From: Ardenticatenaceae bacterium
Lineage (GTDB): Bacteria; Chloroflexota; Anaerolineae; Promineifilales; Promineifilaceae
Direction of reading: 5' to 3'
DNA length: 34,652 nucleotides
Assembly: GCA_027054335.1 (NCBI GenBank)
Contig: JALUPA010000203.1
Span: 1 to 34,652 of the forward strand
Part shown: in pieces, positions 14,206 through 26,441 of the stretch
Layout of the letters: the number at the start of each line of letters is the position of its first letter
How positions within the stretch are numbered: the first letter of the stretch is position 1
Program-made: the position numbers and the translations under genes
The notes under the pieces: generated by a model
What the model was told of the DNA's origin: nothing
What the model saw: the letters and a program-made list of their open reading frames with translations, nothing else
Database searches by the model: none

Positions 14206-14688
14206 CTAAATGAAGATGATTTGGGCGCCCTCGCTCATCTCAATAAAATCAGTCGCTCCGACGACGCCTTCAAGGCCATCGTAAAGGTCATCTTCCGTTA
14301 TCATATTCATATCTTCAAACATATCCACCGACATCTTGCAGGCGTACAGCTTCCCGCCGCTGTCCACAATGATGTCCAGAAATTCGCCGACTTCCGGGAA
14401 ATCTAACTGGGCAATTTCCTTCTTCATCATCTTGGTAGCGATATTGGTCATACCCGGCAGCCCGCCCACAGCATTGGGGATACCCATTGTGGGATTGCCG
14501 ATGGGGACAAACTTCAGGTCATTCATCTTCTTCTTGTTTATCATATCCAGCCCCCAGAAAGTGAAGAACATCGTTACTTCCAACCCTTCCATCAAGGCTG
14601 CATTAGCCAACACCAACCCCGGATAAGCCATGTCCAGCGTACCCTTTGAACAAATAATGCACAATTTCCGATCCGTTTCCTCAAACAT
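14206..14688 (-). CDS. DsrE2-like sulfur-carrier protein (DsrE/DsrF/DrsH-like)
   Basis: 160 residues of the DsrE2 branch of the DsrE/F family, which moves persulfide sulfur between carriers (TusA, DsrC, rhodanese) in sulfur oxidation. Family marks: early ICSKGTLDMAYPGLVLANAAL, then FFTFWGLDMI, and Cys117 in LYACKMSVDMF, the position of the conserved sulfur-binding cysteine of DsrE2. Two extra cysteines (10 and 13) sit at the N-terminus. It is the last gene of the five-gene minus-strand sulfur operon; the start at 14688 has AGGAG. The 60-base gap before it is filled by a short periodic repeat. DsrE2 proteins are often membrane-associated; here the only strongly hydrophobic stretches are short. 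Confidence 0.85.
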   Translation of the reverse strand: MFEETDRKLCIICSKGTLDMAYPGLVLANAALMEGLEVTMFFTFWGLDMINKKKMNDLKFVPIGNPTMGIPNAVGGLPGMTNIATKMMKKEIAQLDFPEVGEFLDIIVDSGGKLYACKMSVDMFEDMNMITEDDLYDGLEGVVGATDFIEMSEGAQIIFI

Positions 14689-14701: not shown

Positions 14702-14750
14702 TTAAGTAATTGGTAACTGGTAATTACTCAATTACTAATTACAGATGACT
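14702..14750. repeat. Short periodic repeat, taattgg/taactgg/taattac type
   Basis: 7-8 base units fill the gap between the DsrC and DsrE2 genes. The opening gtaatt and the repeated aattac are complementary, so a small hairpin can form. Confidence 0.65.
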
Positions 14751-15069
14751 AAATACAACCCGACGGTTTCTTCAACCCGGATACATACGCCACTTTCTTG
14801 GCCGGGCCTTTGGGGAACAACTTGTACAGTTCCTTGGTGGGGACCCCGCCAACCTTGCTGATGCGGCGTAACGTGGGGGCGTCGCCTTGCTCTTCGTAAT
14901 CTTTCCGGCAAAAATTGATGACATCCCAGTGCCGGTCCGTTAAGGGATCAATACCAATTTCCTTAGCCAGCTCTACGGCTACATCCTGGTTCCAATCATC
15001 CGGGTTCAGCATGTACCCGTCATCACCGAATTCAATTTCTTTTCCCGCAATCGTTCTTACTGTTGTCAT
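14749..15069 (-). CDS. DsrC/TusE-family sulfur relay protein lacking CysB
   Basis: 106 residues, small cytoplasmic carrier of the DsrC/TusE family. The core DGYMLNPDDWNQDVAVELA and the C-terminal arm LFPKGPAKKVAYVSGLKKPSGCI are typical. The penultimate Cys105 (CysA) is present, but the position eleven residues earlier, occupied by CysB in respiratory DsrC, is Ala94. By family rule this makes it TusE-like: it can hold a persulfide but cannot form the DsrC trisulfide used with dissimilatory sulfite reductase. An additional Cys54 lies in the core. Its position between DUF1641 and DsrE2, with no TusBCD or MnmA, suggests sulfur transfer linked to sulfide oxidation rather than tRNA thiolation, which is inference. 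The start at 15069 has an AGGAG on the minus strand. Confidence 0.9.
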   Translation of the reverse strand: MTTVRTIAGKEIEFGDDGYMLNPDDWNQDVAVELAKEIGIDPLTDRHWDVINFCRKDYEEQGDAPTLRRISKVGGVPTKELYKLFPKGPAKKVAYVSGLKKPSGCI

Positions 15070-15135: not shown

Positions 15136-15798
15136 CTAATCTGCTACTGTCTTCAATATATTTAACGTTTTAGCCAACCCGCGTTTAACTTCGGGGTCAT
15201 TCAATTGCCGCAAGATAGAGAACATAGAAACGTCTTTGTCGGCGTATTCATCGTCACGGATGGCTACGGCCGTATCCTGCAACATCCGCATAATCTCCGG
15301 CTGCGTCATTTCCTTTACCGTATTTAGAATCAGGACAATATTCTCGCCCAACTGGCGCACATCCTCTTCCGAATATTCCTCCACCACCCGATCCATAATG
15401 GCCAGCCCTTCCTGCATAAAGGAAAAGTAACCTTTATGCTCCATCTCTTCCAGCCGTCCCATCAACGCCAGAAATGCTTGCTGCGTCAGCGGGCTGATGT
15501 CCTGGCCCAACTCCATCAGGCTTTCCATCTGATCCAGCATCTGTTCCAGATTGCGCGTATTACGCATCAGCCGCTTCATCAGCCGCAGCATGTCTTCCAG
15601 TTCCACATACCCGTCAATTTCATCCAGCTCGCGTACCGAAAGCTGGTACATTTCCTGCATCACCGGCGTCAGGTCATTCTTTAACTCGTCAAGCTCCTGC
15701 CGCCGCACTCTCTGGATGCGGGACTCTTCTGCCAGGAAAGCCACCTGCTCGGTCAGGGCGTCAATCTTTTGGTTTAGTTCAAGCAATTGCTCTTCCAT
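15136..15798 (-). CDS. DUF1641 domain protein, partner of sulfide:quinone oxidoreductase
   Basis: 220 residues, almost entirely helical and rich in Glu, Leu and Met; no membrane segment. A coiled-coil-like N-terminus (MEEQLLELNQKIDALTEQVA) leads to the DUF1641 signature at the end: SILRQLNDPEVKRGLAKTLNILK. DUF1641 proteins are commonly encoded next to sulfide:quinone oxidoreductases or similar flavoproteins, as here (SQR immediately upstream), so a structural or regulatory partner role is inferred; biochemical function is unknown. The start at 15798 is preceded on the minus strand by a GGAG. Flanked on both sides by short periodic repeats. Confidence 0.88.
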   Translation of the reverse strand: MEEQLLELNQKIDALTEQVAFLAEESRIQRVRRQELDELKNDLTPVMQEMYQLSVRELDEIDGYVELEDMLRLMKRLMRNTRNLEQMLDQMESLMELGQDISPLTQQAFLALMGRLEEMEHKGYFSFMQEGLAIMDRVVEEYSEEDVRQLGENIVLILNTVKEMTQPEIMRMLQDTAVAIRDDEYADKDVSMFSILRQLNDPEVKRGLAKTLNILKTVAD

Positions 15799-15814: not shown

Positions 15815-15884
15815 TTTAATTGGTAACTGGGTAATTGGGTAATTACTCAATTACTTGATTACTCAATTACGCAATTACTAACTC
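15815..15884. repeat. Short tandem array, tcaattac/ttgattac type
   Basis: Eight-base units (tcaattac, ttgattac, tcaattac, gcaattac) preceded by seven-base aattggt/aactggg units fill the whole gap between SQR and DUF1641. The two halves are partly complementary. Confidence 0.75.
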
Positions 15885-17110
15885 CACTTACCAGCCATAG
15901 ACATCTGCGACGTAATACCCATTTCTTTGCCCTTGAGCAGCAGATTCCAGTACATCCAGCGGAACATCATCTTGCCCCAATGGTTCATTTCTGACTCTTG
16001 CAGCAGGGAGAAGGGGCCAATACCCGGTAAGGGAAACTTGCCTGGCAGCGGTTCCACATCGTAGTTAAAGTCAATCAAAATACCCTTGCCAAAGCCGGAT
16101 TCAATAAAGCAGTTGGCGTGACCGTCAAAGGTAGGTTGCAACTCCAGGCCGTCAATGTAGCGCAGGAAGTTTTCTACAAACACTTCCCCGGCAAAATGGG
16201 CCACCGAACCAGCTTTGGACGTGGGCAGCGCCGCCGCATCCCCCAAAGAGAAGATGTTGTCATACTGTTTGGAAAGGAGCGTGTGTTTGTCCACCGGCAC
16301 AAAGTTCGACTCGTCACCCAACCCGGAACGGCCGATAACGTCTGCGCCCATGTGTACCGGCACTGTCACCAGCAAATCATACTCTACTGCTTCCTCTTCA
16401 TAAGAAATCAGCTTATGCGCTTCCGCATCTACCCGTTCCGGCAAAAAGTCGGGTACCAGGTTGATGTTTTTCTCTTCCAGGATGTTACCCAACAGGGAAG
16501 AGGCGCGCGGTTTAGTAAAAGCGCCGGGCAGCGGTGTGACCAGGGTCAAATCCACCTTGTCCCGCATTCCCTTGTCGTGGAAGTACCAGTCGGCCAGGAA
16601 GATGAATTCCAACGGGGCTACCGGGCATTTATACGGCAAATCCATAATATTCAGCACTAAACGGCCGCCTTCCCAGGTACGCAATTTCTTGGCCAGAGCC
16701 ACAGCGCCATCATAGGTATAAAAATCATAGATGCTCTTACGCCATTCCGGGCCAAGCAGCCCCGGCGTTTCTTCCGGACGGGGGCTGGCGCCGGTCACAA
16801 TGATCAGATAGTCGTACACTAACGTCCGGTTATCTTTGGCAATACGCACTTGATTTTTTTCCGGCTCAATCAACTCAATCTCCGATAAAATCATCTCGAC
16901 CGAGGGTGGCAAATAGTCACGTTTGGCTTTGATGACGTCATTGGGGCCATAAATGCCAAAGGGAATGAAAAGGAAACCTGGTTGGTAGTAATGAACCGTA
17001 TCCTGATCGACGATGGTGATCTTCCATTCTTCCTGGCTCAGTTCATGGCTGAGTTTATTGGCCAACATGGTGCCGGCTGTGCCTGCGCCTAAAATCAATA
17101 ATTTTTTCAT
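15878..17110 (-). CDS. sqr: Sulfide:quinone oxidoreductase-like FAD protein
   Basis: Membrane-associated flavoprotein expected to oxidise sulfide to polysulfide or protein persulfide and pass electrons to quinone. 410 residues. FAD motif GAGTAGTMLA (residues 8-17), second motif VTGASPRPEETPG, third FSLGDAAALPTSKAG. The redox cysteine pair is present: Cys162 (YKCPVAPLEF) and Cys333 (ANCFIESG), matching the two cysteines essential in characterised SQRs; the third, N-terminal cysteine of some types is absent. The C-terminal hydrophobic/aromatic helices (MMFRWMYWNLLLKG) suit monotopic membrane binding. The start at 17110 has AGGAG. Context with DUF1641, DsrC and DsrE2 supports sulfide rather than NADH as substrate, although NDH-2 relatives share the fold. 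Confidence 0.88.
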   Translation of the reverse strand: MKKLLILGAGTAGTMLANKLSHELSQEEWKITIVDQDTVHYYQPGFLFIPFGIYGPNDVIKAKRDYLPPSVEMILSEIELIEPEKNQVRIAKDNRTLVYDYLIIVTGASPRPEETPGLLGPEWRKSIYDFYTYDGAVALAKKLRTWEGGRLVLNIMDLPYKCPVAPLEFIFLADWYFHDKGMRDKVDLTLVTPLPGAFTKPRASSLLGNILEEKNINLVPDFLPERVDAEAHKLISYEEEAVEYDLLVTVPVHMGADVIGRSGLGDESNFVPVDKHTLLSKQYDNIFSLGDAAALPTSKAGSVAHFAGEVFVENFLRYIDGLELQPTFDGHANCFIESGFGKGILIDFNYDVEPLPGKFPLPGIGPFSLLQESEMNHWGKMMFRWMYWNLLLKGKEMGITSQMSMAGKWS

Positions 17111-17175: not shown

Positions 17176-17934
17176 TCAGACGGCCGTAATTGTGGCAATC
17201 TGATCCAGCTTTCGCATCAAAACAACTCTTTCATGCAAAATGTGCGAGACGACGTCAGCCACCGGCTGAATCAACGACAAGATATGCGCTTGCTCCGTCT
17301 CGTCCAGCATATAAACATCTTCCACATGGTCGGTAAACAACGAAAAGTCTACATCCAGATCGGCCGCAATTTCCCGGATTTTTTCCGGTGGCGGCGGCCA
17401 ATTGTCGGGGGCAATACCACCCACAAAAACCATCCCTTGTAAGGTAGCGCCTACGCGGATGTAAGCGCGGGAACAAAGCAGCCCCAGGTAGCCCTCTTCA
17501 AAGCGGGGGTCCAGGCTCAAATCCACGGCCATGTCCCGCCAATGATCAATGCAGCGCTGCCACAGAGTCGGTGTATTGCTTAACGCCTCGAACAAACCGC
17601 AGGGGTTACTCAACTGAGTTGCGGGACGGCCGTCCATATCCGTAATAATGACCATCACACCCAACGCCTTGGCAAACGTGTCCTGAATCAATTGCACACA
17701 GGTCACAGGCAGCTTGTTCAGCAAATCATCGTCGTCCCCATTGTCTGGCGACACAGACGATACCATTGGCGCACTCTGGGCAATCAGCCACGCCTCCACT
17801 TGCTCTGCCGGAAAACGCCACTGCCGGCCCACCTTAATGGATGGTAGCCGCCCTGATTCTGCCATGCGGTAGATCGTAGACCGATCCACATCCAGTAACT
17901 CTTGTACATCCTTTGCCGTCAACATCTTACTCAT
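17176..17934 (-). CDS. Excisionase-type helix-turn-helix regulator with PocR sensory domain
   Basis: 252 residues. Residues 1-55 form a MerR/excisionase-like winged helix (MLTAKDVQELLDVDRSTIYRMAESGRLPSIKVGRQWRFPAEQVEAWL). A short linker leads to a PocR-type ligand-binding domain (about 75-245) with its cysteine pattern: NPCGLF, QRCIDHW and LLCSRAYIRVGATLQGMVFVGGI; in this family such cysteines may bind a metal, cluster or thiol ligand. It heads the sulfur operon and is the obvious candidate to control it, possibly sensing a sulfur species (inference). Two starts are possible: ATG 17934 with a weak AAGGG, or ATG 17925, which would be leaderless if TATAAT at 17938-17933 is the -10 box. A TGTGA-N6-TCACA site lies just upstream. 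Confidence 0.85.
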   Translation of the reverse strand: MSKMLTAKDVQELLDVDRSTIYRMAESGRLPSIKVGRQWRFPAEQVEAWLIAQSAPMVSSVSPDNGDDDDLLNKLPVTCVQLIQDTFAKALGVMVIITDMDGRPATQLSNPCGLFEALSNTPTLWQRCIDHWRDMAVDLSLDPRFEEGYLGLLCSRAYIRVGATLQGMVFVGGIAPDNWPPPPEKIREIAADLDVDFSLFTDHVEDVYMLDETEQAHILSLIQPVADVVSHILHERVVLMRKLDQIATITAV

Positions 17935-17938
17935 TATA
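17933..17938 (-). promoter_or_regulatory. Candidate -10 box of the sulfur operon
   Basis: Perfect TATAAT on the minus strand. A start seven bases on would be at 17926, adjoining ATG 17925. No good -35 is seen; the TGTGA-N6-TCACA site at 17948-17963 takes that place, so the promoter may depend on, or be blocked by, a CRP/FNR-family protein. Confidence 0.4.
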
Positions 17939-17947
17939 CAAACCCTT

Positions 17948-17963
17948 TGTGAATATCATCACA
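17948..17963. promoter_or_regulatory. CRP/FNR-family-like operator, site 1
   Basis: TGTGA-ATATCA-TCACA, a perfect match to the symmetric half-sites of the CRP consensus. It is centred about 30 bases before the predicted start of the sulfur operon. Confidence 0.55.
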
Positions 17964-18023
17964 ATACGCATATATCATAAGGCGAATACATATGCAGTAG
18001 AAGTGACAATCGGCAGATTCGTC

Positions 18024-18039
18024 TGTGACAAATGTCACA
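18024..18039. promoter_or_regulatory. CRP/FNR-family-like operator, site 2
   Basis: TGTGA-CAAATG-TCACA, again a perfect pair of half-sites, 76 bases from site 1, in the region shared by the regulator and the phosphatase gene. Confidence 0.55.
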
Positions 18040-18071
18040 ATCTGCATATTGTGCAGATAATGCAGATTGTG
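18036..18071. promoter_or_regulatory. 12-bp inverted repeat, possible operator
   Basis: cacaatctgcat (18036-18047) and atgcagattgtg (18060-18071) are perfect complements with a 12-base spacer that itself contains attgtgcagata, a partial copy of the same motif. It overlaps operator site 2. It is a possible binding site for the PocR-type regulator. Confidence 0.5.
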
Positions 18072-18117
18072 CATAAGCAAGCCCTTCGAGAAATATCCCC
18101 GTCAGGGAAAATTCCTC

Positions 18118-18146
18118 TTGCCGACTTCTCGACTGTACGTTATTCT
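18118..18146 (+). promoter_or_regulatory. Candidate promoter of the phosphatase gene
   Basis: TTGCCG (18118-18123), 17-base spacer, TATTCT (18141-18146). The predicted start is about one base before the ATG at 18154, which has no Shine-Dalgarno, so the mRNA may be leaderless. Confidence 0.35.
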
Positions 18147-18153
18147 TTTCGTT

Positions 18154-18699
18154 ATGAATCCTTTCCATTGGGCTTTTGACAAACTGTATCCGCTGATCCG
18201 CTATCTTTATGAGCAGATATTGGACAATGTCTGGTTCAGCCAAATCACACCGGCGGAGGGGATTACGGCCGAATTATGGCTGGGGGGTGCGCCCACCTAC
18301 GCCCGCGACTACGAATTTATCAAAGCGCACGACATAGGGGCCGTGGTCAACATTCGCGCCGAACGGGAAGACGATACAAAATTCTACCAAGAAAATGACA
18401 TTACCCATTTGCAATTAAAAGTGCTGGACGTCACTGTGCCGGAGGAAGATATTTTGTCGGAAGGGGTGGCCTGGATGAAAGAGCAAGTGGCTGACGGCCG
18501 TTCCGTGCTGGTTCACTGCGCCAAAGGGAGAGGCCGCTCGGCTACCCTGCTGGCAGCTTACCTGATGCAGGAAGAGGGTTTAACCTACGAGGAAGCTCAC
18601 ACCCTGCTCAAAGGCAAACGTTCCCTCACCAAACTGGAAGGCCGCCACAAAAACCGCTTAAAAACCTGGCGGGAAAAACGTAAATACCAAAAACAGTAA
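18154..18699 (+). CDS. Dual-specificity protein phosphatase family protein
   Basis: Cysteine-dependent phosphatase of 181 residues. The P-loop HCAKGRGRS (121-129) has nucleophile Cys122 and Arg128. The likely general acid is the aspartate in LDVTVPEED. The N-terminal 30 residues are hydrophobic and aromatic ([23 protein letters not shown]) and may associate with membrane. The C-terminus is strongly basic ([17 protein letters not shown]). Proteins of this plan act on phosphotyrosine or phosphoserine, or, in the PTPMT1 group, on phosphatidylglycerophosphate; the sequence does not decide between them. I chose ATG 18154 because upstream in-frame codons run into the operator region. It is divergent from the sulfur operon and followed by an intrinsic terminator. 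Confidence 0.85.
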
Positions 18700-22465: not shown

Positions 22466-23482
22466 ATGACGCACACCTTGCTGGCTAATTACGAAAAAGA
22501 ACAGGCAATTCTGTCAGAATTTGTCCGGAGCGACGCCGAACCGAACATCTTGCTGCTACGAGGCGAGAGCGGCAGCGGCAAGTCCAGTCTGGTGGCCCAT
22601 TGCCTGCGCATTGCCCCAGAAATGCCTTCCCTTTCGCTGACGTTGGAAAGCGAAGGGGATTCGATTCCCACTTTGTTTAACAGCATGGGCGGACGCTGCG
22701 GCTGGGACAAGCTGCCCCGCTTTACCCGCGTGGTGGCGGGACTGCTGGAAACGTCGGACAGCGTTGACGACCCGGTTTGGCAGATGGGGATGCACCGGCA
22801 TTTACGCCAGATTGGCCGGATTGGCGATCTGGAAAGCCGCCTTTCCCGCTACCAACTGCTTTCCGATGTCTGGTTTGCCGACGCCATGCAGTTTGAAACC
22901 CCGTTTTTGCTGGCGATTGACGCCTACGAATCAGCCCCCACTTTGTTTGACCGTTGGTTCAGCCAGGATTTTCTGGTGGGCGCGGCCAACTCGCGGCGGA
23001 TGCGGGTATTGGTGGCCGGGCAAAAGACGCCGGCCGTCCAGGCAGCCTGGAGTTTTTGCGCCAGCTTGCAGGAGTTAACCGGTATCCACCAGGCAAAGGA
23101 TTGGCTGGCGTGGGCGGAAAAAGCCGGCTATCAGGTTCCTTCGCTGGAAGTGTTGGCCGGAGTGGTGTTGGCTCTGAAAGGAAACCCCAGCCAGATTATT
23201 GAAGTCATCCAGGCAGAGTTTCCTCGCGCCAGCGGCCCCATCAGGCCCAAAGAATCGCTTATAGCGCAGCGCCGCCGCTTTTTCCGCAATATGACCCAAG
23301 CCTTTTCCCTCAAGGAACTGAAAAATATCTGCTTTTTCCTGGGGATTGATTACGAAAATTTGCCGGATCACGATCAAAAAGATGGCTTTGTACGCGAATT
23401 GTTGGCCTTTGCGGAGCGGATCGGCCGTTTGAAAGAGTTGATTCAGGAATGCCAGGCCGAACGGCCGCATCTGGAATGGTAG
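22466..23482 (+). CDS. P-loop ATPase with C-terminal death-like effector-associated domain (EAD)
   Basis: 338 residues. STAND/AAA-like ATPase: Walker A GESGSGKSS (33-41), Walker B FLLAIDAYES (about 149-158). The last ~60 residues (about 275-338; SLKELKNICFFLGIDYENLP...FVRELLAFAERIGRLKELIQECQAERPHLEW) match the small helical effector-associated domains described in prokaryotic conflict systems (closest in memory to the EAD7-like type), which couple proteins by like-with-like binding. Only four bases separate it from the NACHT gene, so the two act together. The start ATG lacks a strong Shine-Dalgarno. The role as adaptor or sensor in a defence or cell-death circuit is inference from domain type; the ATPase family itself is certain only at P-loop level. 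Confidence 0.75.
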   Translation: MTHTLLANYEKEQAILSEFVRSDAEPNILLLRGESGSGKSSLVAHCLRIAPEMPSLSLTLESEGDSIPTLFNSMGGRCGWDKLPRFTRVVAGLLETSDSVDDPVWQMGMHRHLRQIGRIGDLESRLSRYQLLSDVWFADAMQFETPFLLAIDAYESAPTLFDRWFSQDFLVGAANSRRMRVLVAGQKTPAVQAAWSFCASLQELTGIHQAKDWLAWAEKAGYQVPSLEVLAGVVLALKGNPSQIIEVIQAEFPRASGPIRPKESLIAQRRRFFRNMTQAFSLKELKNICFFLGIDYENLPDHDQKDGFVRELLAFAERIGRLKELIQECQAERPHLEW

Positions 23483-23486
23483 GCCC

Positions 23487-26441
23487 ATGGAGACGGATTT
23501 GTTACAACGACTGACCGCCGCCGCCACAGACGCGGAACGAGAAGCCATCGTCCTGGAAATGCGCCTCTCGACGCTTGACCCCGACGCGCGGGCAGCGGCG
23601 CTGGCGGCCGCCATCCCCCATTGGTTTGACGCCCTCTTTCTGGAAGCGCTGCTGGAAGACGAGGACAGCGATATTTTGTACGGGCAACTGCTGGCGTTGA
23701 GCTTTGTCCAGCAGATTCCGGGCAAAGGGTACGCCGTTCACGAGCGGACGCGGCGGCAGATGTTGGACAATTTGTGGCGGGAGGCACCGGAACGCTTCCG
23801 GGCGTTAAGCAGGCGGGCGGCCGATTACTGCGCGGCGCAGGCAGAGCAGACGGATGATCCGGCGTGGGCGGCGGAGGCGATTTACCACCGGCTGGTGAGC
23901 GACCCGGAGGCGGGCATTGCCGGGCTGCGCGGCCTGGCAACGAAGTGGGCCAATTATGAATACCACACGTATGACGAGATTGAGCGGGCGGTGCGCCTGG
24001 CCCAGGAGCAGATTGAGGCGGGGCGGCTGACCGGCGCGGGGGCGGACTGGACGCGGTTGTGGCAGGCGAAACTGGCTTTGCTGTACGGCCGTCCCGATTT
24101 GGCCGCCGCTCCTCTGAAACAAATAAGCGCGGACCCCGCCGTTGACCCCGCGCTGGCGGCAGAAACGGCCGAAACCCGCGGCGACGCGCTGGCCGAAACA
24201 GATGACCGGGCCGGGATGGAAGCTGCCTGGCGCGCTGCCTGGGAACTTTACCGGCAGATGGACGGCCGTCAACTGGACGCTTACCTGGTGGCGGAGAAAA
24301 TGCGCCAACACAGTTTAGCGGAGCCGGACGCAGAACCTGTGCCAGACACGCCGCCGGAAACACGGCCGTCGCGTGACAGAGAACGCCTGATTGACAACAT
24401 TACCGCCGCCTGGATTGACGGCGTGCTGAAAACGTCGCTCAACCAGACGCTGGAGTTGGGCATGTCCCGCGCCGGGGGGCAGTTAGCCAACCTGGTTTAC
24501 CACCGGCCGCAAACGCTGGACCGCCCGGTGACGGCCGAGCGCCGTTTGAGCCGCCTTTTTGCCGCGGCGGACCATTCCCTGCTCATTTTGGGCGCGCCGG
24601 GCAGCGGCAAGACGATAACCCTGCTGCAACTGCTGGACGACCTGCTGCAACAAGCGCGCCAGGACGCCAGCGCTCCCATCCCCCTGCTTTTTAACCTCTC
24701 CTCCTTTGGCGCGTATGCCCAGGAAAAAGGGGCGGATTTACGCGGCTGGCTGGCGGAGCAGGCGTATGACCAATACCGCCTCAAACGAGAAGCGACGCGC
24801 CAACAATTGGCCGAGGTCGGCCGCTTTACCCTGCTGCTGGACGGCCTGGACGAAGCGCCGCCGGCGCAGCGGGAGCAATGCGTGGCGGCCATAAACGAAT
24901 TTGCGCGGGCCTACCCCGGCGGGCTGGTGGTGTGCAGCCGGATTGGGGATTATGCAGCGCTGCAAAACAAACTGGCTTTGCGCCAGGCCCTCGTCTTGCA
25001 GCCGTTAGCCAACCGGCAGATCGAATCGTTCCTGGAAGTTGTGGGTGGCGGGCAAACCCCGGCGCTGCTCCAGCGGCTGCAAACGGATTGGCAGTTGCGG
25101 GAGACGCTGCGCTCACCGCTTTTGCTCAATTTGTACCCGCAGGCGTTTACCGCGCTGGAAGCGCAATTTGACGAGGGTGGTTTTTCCGCAAACGATACGG
25201 TGGAAACACGGCGCAAAGCGTTGTTTGCCGCCTACGTGGATACCGTTTTCGCCCGGCCGGAAAAGGCGGCCGCCGGGAAAGACAGCGCAATTTCTAAAGA
25301 AAAAAATATACATTGGTTGTCCTTTCTGGCCAACCGGATGCAAAAGGTGGGCAGTTCCCTCTTTTTTATCGAAGAAATGCAGCCCACCTGGCTGCCCCGG
25401 TCCCTCGTGCGCCGTTATCGCGGCTTGTACGGTTTATTCATTGGGTTGAGTGTCGGGCTGATTGGTGGGCTGATTTTCGGACTGGTTGGTAAGCAGGTTG
25501 ACAGGATGATTGTCGGGAATATTGTTGGATTAATTGTTGGGTTGTGTGTCGGGGGAACCATAGTGACTGGTCTAACGACTGGCATTCGCCGACCCAAACT
25601 ACGTGCTATTATTGGTGGCCCGATAGTCTGGCTGATTGTCGGGCTGAGTGGCGGGTTAAGCAACGGGCAGATTAGCGTTCAACGTGGTAATCTGTTTGGC
25701 GGATTGAGTGTCGGGTTAGGGGCGATTATCGGTGTGGGGGTTCTTTCCAGTTGGGCCTCTGCGATTCAACTACGAGAGATTGTGGTTCCTTTATGGCCCT
25801 CACGGCACAGGATTTTACGCATTATTAAACAAAGTAGCTTCTATGGGCTGATTTTAGGACTGATTTTGGGGCTGATTGTCGGGCTGATTGTCGAGCTGAT
25901 TGATTGGCTGGTTGCCGGACTGGGGTCCTGGCTGTTTGGCGGACGAGGTTTTAGATCGATTGATTGGCTGATTGAGCTACTAATTATTGGGCTGATTATC
26001 GTGATGATTGGTGGGCTGATTGGCGGGCTGGTTGGGGTTGTCATGGCTTTTCTGGATACACCTTTGGTGGATAAACGGCCGCAAGCGGGAATGGGGGTGC
26101 GCGCTTCGCTGCGCAACAGCTTACGCATGACCCTCCTGGCCGTTTTGTTTTTTGGCTTGCCCACTTTGTTTATTGACCGAGCCGTGGGTGGTGATTATCT
26201 TTGGCTCTTTCTTGTTTTAATCAATATTTTGCCGCCTACATTCAGTTGGTTTGGCGGGCTGGCGTGGTGCCAGCATTGGGCGCTGCGGGTTGTCATTGCC
26301 CGCCAGGGGTGGCTGCCGCTGCGGCTGGTTCCCTGGCTGGACAGGATGGCGGCATTGGGGCTGCTGCGCCGGGTGGGCGGCGGCTATATTTTTATTCATC
26401 GCTCGCTGCTGGAGTATTTCGCCTCATTGGAGGAGTGGTAG
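23487..26441 (+). CDS. NACHT NTPase with N-terminal winged-helix/helical repeats and glycine-rich multi-pass membrane region
   Basis: 984 residues. Residues 1-270: helical, with a winged-helix-like stretch (LALSFVQQIPGKGYAVHERTRRQMLDNLW, about 69-97) and TPR-like helices. About 298-350: the conserved lead-in seen before many bacterial NACHT domains (RERLIDNITAAWIDGVL). NACHT: Walker A GAPGSGKT (369-376), Walker B LLLDGLDEA (449-457), sensor SRIGDY. About 650-930: many hydrophobic segments built from GLI/GLIVG repeats. The final ~20 residues GGGYIFIHRSLLEYFASLEEW repeat the C-terminal motif of NACHT proteins of this group, so the membrane part is placed between NACHT and that tail. Related bNACHT proteins act against phages; here a membrane-disrupting or membrane-tethered effector is inferred. 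Confidence 0.85.
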   Translation: METDLLQRLTAAATDAEREAIVLEMRLSTLDPDARAAALAAAIPHWFDALFLEALLEDEDSDILYGQLLALSFVQQIPGKGYAVHERTRRQMLDNLWREAPERFRALSRRAADYCAAQAEQTDDPAWAAEAIYHRLVSDPEAGIAGLRGLATKWANYEYHTYDEIERAVRLAQEQIEAGRLTGAGADWTRLWQAKLALLYGRPDLAAAPLKQISADPAVDPALAAETAETRGDALAETDDRAGMEAAWRAAWELYRQMDGRQLDAYLVAEKMRQHSLAEPDAEPVPDTPPETRPSRDRERLIDNITAAWIDGVLKTSLNQTLELGMSRAGGQLANLVYHRPQTLDRPVTAERRLSRLFAAADHSLLILGAPGSGKTITLLQLLDDLLQQARQDASAPIPLLFNLSSFGAYAQEKGADLRGWLAEQAYDQYRLKREATRQQLAEVGRFTLLLDGLDEAPPAQREQCVAAINEFARAYPGGLVVCSRIGDYAALQNKLALRQALVLQPLANRQIESFLEVVGGGQTPALLQRLQTDWQLRETLRSPLLLNLYPQAFTALEAQFDEGGFSANDTVETRRKALFAAYVDTVFARPEKAAAGKDSAISKEKNIHWLSFLANRMQKVGSSLFFIEEMQPTWLPRSLVRRYRGLYGLFIGLSVGLIGGLIFGLVGKQVDRMIVGNIVGLIVGLCVGGTIVTGLTTGIRRPKLRAIIGGPIVWLIVGLSGGLSNGQISVQRGNLFGGLSVGLGAIIGVGVLSSWASAIQLREIVVPLWPSRHRILRIIKQSSFYGLILGLILGLIVGLIVELIDWLVAGLGSWLFGGRGFRSIDWLIELLIIGLIIVMIGGLIGGLVGVVMAFLDTPLVDKRPQAGMGVRASLRNSLRMTLLAVLFFGLPTLFIDRAVGGDYLWLFLVLINILPPTFSWFGGLAWCQHWALRVVIARQGWLPLRLVPWLDRMAALGLLRRVGGGYIFIHRSLLEYFASLEEW
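25425..26050 (+). repeat. Quasi-repeated DNA coding the GLI/GLIVG membrane segments
   Basis: Imperfect 12-base units of the type gggctgattgtc recur, most densely at 25846-25920 and 25975-26035, encoding Gly-Leu-Ile-Val/Phe tetrads. Codon use is more T-rich than in the rest of the gene. Confidence 0.7.

Follow-up and report, generated by a model that had tools for sequence, protein, structure and literature searches.

The promoter of a five-gene operon in the 34,652-nucleotide stretch of DNA analysed here (the window) appears to combine three layers of control: a CRP/FNR-family activator, Rex, and the operon's own HTH_17-PocR regulator. We put the probability of this reading at about 0.6. On the same sequence comparisons, the operon is probably switched jointly by the redox state of the cell, an energy/oxygen regulator and its own sensor protein. 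The individual parts are of known kinds; their combination and the repeat array of the sensor appear to be undescribed. The window lies in a draft genome of 5.85 Mb, to which all genome-wide counts below refer, and all of the evidence comes from comparing sequences of draft genomes, among which related promoters are not independent of one another.

The operon and its neighbours

The five genes are read leftwards, on the minus strand, and are predicted to form an operon for sulfide oxidation. The first encodes the regulator (17176-17934), in which an N-terminal HTH_17 winged helix (BldC/excisionase-like) precedes a PocR sensor domain, both recognised by Pfam. It is followed by a type III sulfide:quinone oxidoreductase (SQR; 15878-17110; NF049943, 643.5 bits against a cut-off of 525), whose PDB matches are sulfide:quinone oxidoreductases (best E 4e-40). 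The remaining genes encode a DUF1641 protein (15136-15798; Pfam PF07849), a DsrC/TusE-like sulfur relay protein (14749-15069; TIGR03342, above cut-off) and a DsrE2-like sulfur carrier (14206-14688; PF13686, with NF047629 below cut-off). We note that the NCBIfam model matched by the SQR is the selenoprotein subtype of type III SQR (643 bits), and that the gene has no in-frame TGA.

We fetched 80 loci encoding relatives of the regulator from Chloroflexota and Actinomycetota, the latter mostly Acidimicrobiia. In most of them the five genes recur in unchanged order, headed by the regulator. These loci supplied 28 Chloroflexota and 44 Actinomycetota promoters for comparison, and 20 core Chloroflexota promoters were aligned. 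By sequence, the same regulator and promoter cassette also heads other genes: an FAD-linked oxidase-like ORF at locus L102, and cytochrome c-like and molybdopterin oxidoreductase-like ORFs at L114.

Between the start of the regulator gene (17934) and the ATG of a divergent, rightward gene (18154) lies a gap of 219 bp (17935-18153). The divergent gene encodes a dual-specificity phosphatase (18154-18699, plus strand; PF00782), which the earlier note had suggested may share control with the sulfur operon. It has a separate promoter of its own on the plus strand (18118-18146), with TTGCCG at 18118-18123, a 17-bp spacer and TATTCT at 18141-18146, and a TTGC plus TAT-N-CT box is conserved in the six phosphatase-promoter sequences that we aligned. 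Of the 80 loci, just 5 (L078, L086, L087, L091 and L093) have the phosphatase gene as a neighbour. Because of this conserved promoter and this infrequent adjacency, shared control is possible but unsupported. Elsewhere in the window, adjoining genes at 22466-26441 encode EAD7/EAD1 effector-associated domains and a NACHT ATPase, and look like a defence or conflict system.

Two similar sites of different kinds

The gap contains two exact TGTGA-N6-TCACA sites, TGTGAATATCATCACA at 17948-17963 and TGTGACAAATGTCACA at 18024-18039, just as the earlier note had reported. The pair is far above chance: dinucleotide shuffling of the gap 20,000 times produced one exact site in 9 cases and two in none. The genome as a whole contains 9 exact sites, and a reversed-pattern control finds 3. 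The 7 outside the window are all intergenic, in loci of which ORFs make up 84%, and the two in the window are as well.

Conservation in relatives, the check that the earlier note had proposed for its sites, holds for the promoter, and the conserved forms bear on its further claim that a single CRP/FNR family accounts for both of them. The proximal site keeps TTCACAA and the distal site, together with a neighbour described below, keeps TGACA-N2-TGTCA; no interchange between the two forms was seen in the aligned promoters. For these reasons we regard the two sites as different elements by sequence, the proximal one Rex-like and the distal one CRP/FNR-like. The proposal of dual control by a CRP/FNR protein and the local regulator thus survives in part, in that the promoter has CRP/FNR-like sites along with a probable one for the PocR-type regulator, and fails in treating the two TGTGA sites as one family. 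The earlier note had overlooked a degenerate second dyad at 18002-18017 and a four-copy TGCA array.

Tandem dyads at a fixed distance from the -10 box

On the minus strand, the distal site is dyad 1 (TGTGACATTTGTCACA, 18024-18039) of a CRP/FNR-like pair. Dyad 2 (TCTGCCGATTGTCACT, 18002-18017) has a degenerate left half and a conserved right half, TGTCACT. In the 20 aligned Chloroflexota promoters the TGACA-N2-TGTCA dyads of the pair are spaced 22-23 bp apart, and the right half of dyad 2 is invariant at columns +3 to +5 and +7. The form TGTGACANNTGTCACA, at up to 2 mismatches, is found in 17 of 28 Chloroflexota promoters where 0.1 would be expected.

We scanned for a -10 box by anchoring on the centre of dyad 2 and scoring offsets 18 to 43 against TATAAT, with no tie-breaking. 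Offset +30 had a mean of 1.35 mismatches, with at most 2 in 19 of 20 promoters, and every other offset had a mean of at least 3.1. In the window the corresponding hexamer is TATGAT (17974-17979, minus strand), which begins exactly 30 bp past the dyad 2 centre. Identity between promoters is 0.34 in the spacer from dyad 2 to the -10 box, against 0.73 in dyad 2 itself, and with a spacer so poorly conserved the fixed distance is not simply the shared ancestry of a conserved block. With the -10 box placed at -12 to -7, the predicted start point of the regulator transcript falls near 17967 and the dyad centres fall near -42 and -64. These are the usual positions of a class II activator and its upstream partner. 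Counted from this predicted start point, the arrangement has the class II features of a dyad near -41.5 and a fixed distance to the -10 box, and no clear -35 is visible in the regulator-operon promoter. A -10 box at the +30 offset gave no clear signal at the other dyads of the genome. The fixed distance should nonetheless help in reading promoters of the same type in other genomes.

Eight CRP/FNR candidates in this genome scored above cut-off, and no candidate group was found in all 11 dyad-positive relatives. The best candidates are the L066, L067 and L069 types, and we gave up assigning the dyads to any one gene. Dyads precede the operon of the L066 type itself, but a search at 60% or more failed to find its orthologues in several of the dyad-positive genomes. 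The L067 and L069 types, the most widespread (10 and 9 of the 11), have no dyads upstream of their own genes. Elsewhere in the genome, sites resembling TGTGACANNTGTCACA adjoin genes for multihaem cytochromes, a prismane/CO dehydrogenase gene, COX genes, and SCO1 with a CRP gene. These neighbours suggest a regulon of respiratory function; the genome-wide count is just twofold above control when 2 mismatches are allowed. Sites of the form TTGTGATATTCTTCAC occur in three places, at L008 before nrfHA-type genes beside a CRP gene and at two further sites on another contig (L047 and L048), the former by a multihaem cytochrome, and perhaps mark a second CRP/FNR regulon.

A Rex-like site just past the predicted start point

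The proximal site extends to an exact TTGTGA-N6-TCACAA (17947-17964), just past the predicted start point. On the minus strand it reads TTGTGATGATATTCACAA, a putative Rex-like operator spanning +4 to +21 as counted from the predicted start of the regulator transcript. Nineteen of the 20 core Chloroflexota promoters keep the half-site TTCACAA exactly (the other, L083, has ATCACAA); the left half drifts in relatives, and the site does not change to the TGTCACA form of the dyads. At up to 2 mismatches, the Rex-like site is present in 18 of 28 Chloroflexota promoters (0.2 expected in shuffles) and in 13 of 44 Actinomycetota promoters (0.1 expected).

The Rex site has been described as TTGTGAAW4TTCACAA (PMC2883068). 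In the window the half-sites TTGTGAT and TTCACAA flank GATA, so that the inner A/T match is found on one side only; the full TTGTGAA-N4-TTCACAA form is found at L119, L122, L139 and L140. The genome encodes one Rex, and TTGTGA-N6-TCACAA at up to 1 mismatch occurs 21 times in it, against 2 in the control. Genes that have such a site upstream include atpA, nuoB and one for a molybdopterin oxidoreductase. Rex is proven to target atp and nuo in Streptomyces avermitilis, and the cydA1 Rex operator of that species sits downstream of the start point (PMC5355995). Position and target set together make Rex more likely than CRP at 17947-17964. The presence or absence of Rex did not serve as a discriminating test, since most genomes have it with or without the site: Rex was found in 44 of 50 genomes, and among Actinomycetota in 13 of the 13 checked that have the site and 16 of 19 that lack it.

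The TGCA array and the regulator

Upstream of dyad 1 lie four TGCA direct repeats at 9-bp spacing (18043-18073, minus strand; units start at 18043, 18052, 18061 and 18070). A perfect four-copy array arose in none of 20,000 shuffles, and four TGCA in a row are found nowhere else in the genome; other 9-bp TGCA triplets are near control level genome-wide (37 against 22 at up to 1 mismatch). Pairs of TGCA at distance 9 number 62 in the 28 Chloroflexota promoters, against 0.9 expected, and 61 in the 44 Actinomycetota promoters, against 0.3. The array thus accompanies the regulator gene across two phyla; it was not found upstream of four regulator relatives outside the SQR operon (L101, L109, L118 and L132). 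Two distant relatives (L027 and L029, about 32-34% identity) have, by eye, upstream TGCA-type repeats roughly 9-11 bp apart. BldC, which has a winged helix broadly like that of the regulator, binds in head-to-tail fashion to direct repeats of 9 bp (PMC5859096), and by analogy the operon's own regulator is the probable binder of the array.

The regulator has a MerR-like winged HTH, as indicated by HTH_17, TIGR01764 (excise) and the AlphaFold model, and its PocR domain (PF10114) scores 63.5 bits against a cut-off of 23.9. The model (pLDDT 88.7) comprises the winged HTH, a flexible linker, the sensor domain and a long C-terminal helix. The only PDB match of the HTH is BldC, and a weak one (E 0.04); a PDB search with the whole regulator gave nothing at E 0.01, the top Foldseek PDB hits of the model are IclR-type regulators and not BldC, and the curated HTH_BldC model (NF033787) is matched at 23 bits, below its cut-off of 77. 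Given the weak PDB match and the failed family model, we do not file the protein as a member of the BldC family, but by analogy it probably works like BldC.

Proposed control of the operon

We propose the following mechanism; the assignment of proteins to sites, the sign of their effects and the ligand are predictions. A CRP/FNR-family activator would bind the two tandem dyads, 22 bp apart with centres near -42 and -64, and would recruit RNA polymerase to a promoter that has a good -10 box and no clear -35. Rex, bound to TTGTGA-N6-TCACAA just downstream of the start point, would block transcription at high NAD+ and leave its operator as NADH rises. The HTH_17-PocR protein would bind the four TGCA repeats head to tail, from -76 to -106, and would tune the operon and itself in response to a PocR ligand, perhaps a sulfur species.

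Two other readings concern the proximal site. A single CRP/FNR protein might bind both TGTGA-N6-TCACA sites, as an activator site and as a repressor site over the start point; both are exact matches to one 10-base consensus, and such CRP-type sites are common. We consider this unlikely, because in relatives the proximal site is TTCACAA with a loose left half and the distal dyads are TGACA-N2-TGTCA with variable outer bases, and because the TTGTGA-N6-TCACAA sites outside the window include atp and nuo promoters. Still less does the proximal element look like a 5'-leader hairpin acting in RNA. It falls inside the predicted leader and has arms of 5-6 bp that are able to pair, but the left arm varies (TGTGC, TGTGT, TTGTT) against a fixed right arm, so that pairing is lost in relatives, and there is no Rfam match; we rejected an RNA structure here and give it hardly any credence.

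The other two concern the upstream region, where the earlier note had pointed to a 12-bp inverted repeat (CACAATCTGCAT / ATGCAGATTGTG, 18036-18071). The repeat is real: its arms (18036-18047 and 18060-18071) are 100% complementary, and they consist of the TGCA iterons and the edge of dyad 1. Were it the operator of the PocR-type regulator, bound by a symmetric dimer as with a classical MerR protein, its near-perfect form within the same genus would fit. At the 24-bp offset, however, the repeat is perfect only in the window, with 1 mismatch at L078 and L114 and 2 at L102, and 17 of 20 relatives have at least 3 mismatches at the window's spacing. It is the 9-bp direct repeats that are conserved, over two phyla. 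TGCA is itself palindromic, so that its direct repetition creates inverted repeats, and by sequence the 12-bp repeat is a by-product of the array; we discarded it as a conserved operator, and a symmetric-dimer operator seems very improbable. A different protein on the array, whether a nucleoid protein or another MerR/excisionase-like regulator, is more plausible than that and still rather unlikely: some members of the regulator family lack the array, but it accompanies the regulator gene in both phyla and is likewise found before the regulators that head other redox genes at L102 and L114. Binding of the array by the operon's own regulator remains the preferred reading.

If the three-layer reading is true, it provides a testable rule for the onset of sulfide oxidation in uncultured Chloroflexota and Acidimicrobiia, makes Rex the link between SQR and the NADH/NAD+ state, and predicts a BldC relative that has a fused sensor and a precise DNA target.

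Comparison with known systems

The dyads resemble class II CRP/FNR-activated promoters in having a site near -42, a good -10 box, no clear -35 and a second dyad two turns upstream, and differ in the site itself, GTGAC-N4-GTCAC, whose right half is invariant and whose left half is loose. The proximal site shares the 18-bp TTGTGA(A)-N4-(T)TCACAA form with the Rex operators of S. avermitilis and Staphylococcus aureus (PMC5355995, PMC2883068). As with S. avermitilis Rex, the atp and nuo operons here carry such sites, in a genome that encodes Rex, and as with the cydA1 operator, the site lies downstream of the start point, here a predicted one (PMC5355995). Unlike those operators, its target is a sulfide:quinone oxidoreductase operon, and its left half is degenerate in many relatives. 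A limited literature search found no earlier report of Rex at SQR.

Most Actinomycetota promoters lack the CRP/FNR-like dyads. In this phylum GGGACTT-N2-GGCCCTA is a conserved box, with 36 of 44 promoters at up to 1 mismatch to GGGAC-N4-GNCCC where about 2 would be expected. Among the actinobacterial promoters (L094-L157) the box often lies about 19 bp downstream of a Rex-like site; the -10 position relative to it showed no sharp peak. It resembles the DosR/DevR consensus of mycobacteria, TTSGGGACTWWAGTCCCSAA (PMC2275270), in sequence only, and is absent from the window; we offer a DosR-like box in Actinomycetota as a lead only.

Taking the two phyla together, we tentatively suggest, as an idea that we hold with considerable doubt, that the regulator represents a ligand-sensing BldC-like family that would form head-to-tail polymers on TGCA arrays of 9-bp spacing, sense a sulfur or redox ligand through a PocR domain with conserved cysteines, and control sulfide oxidation in both phyla, with the other inputs swapped between them (CRP/FNR-like dyads in Chloroflexota, the DosR-like box in Actinomycetota). 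The regulator is like the BldC family in its HTH_17/MerR-like winged helix and, for its putative target upstream, in the variable number of 9-bp head-to-tail repeats (PMC5859096). It differs in the core of those repeats, TGCA here and AATT-N4-C for BldC, in its weak sequence similarity, and in the fusion of its HTH to a PocR sensor domain.
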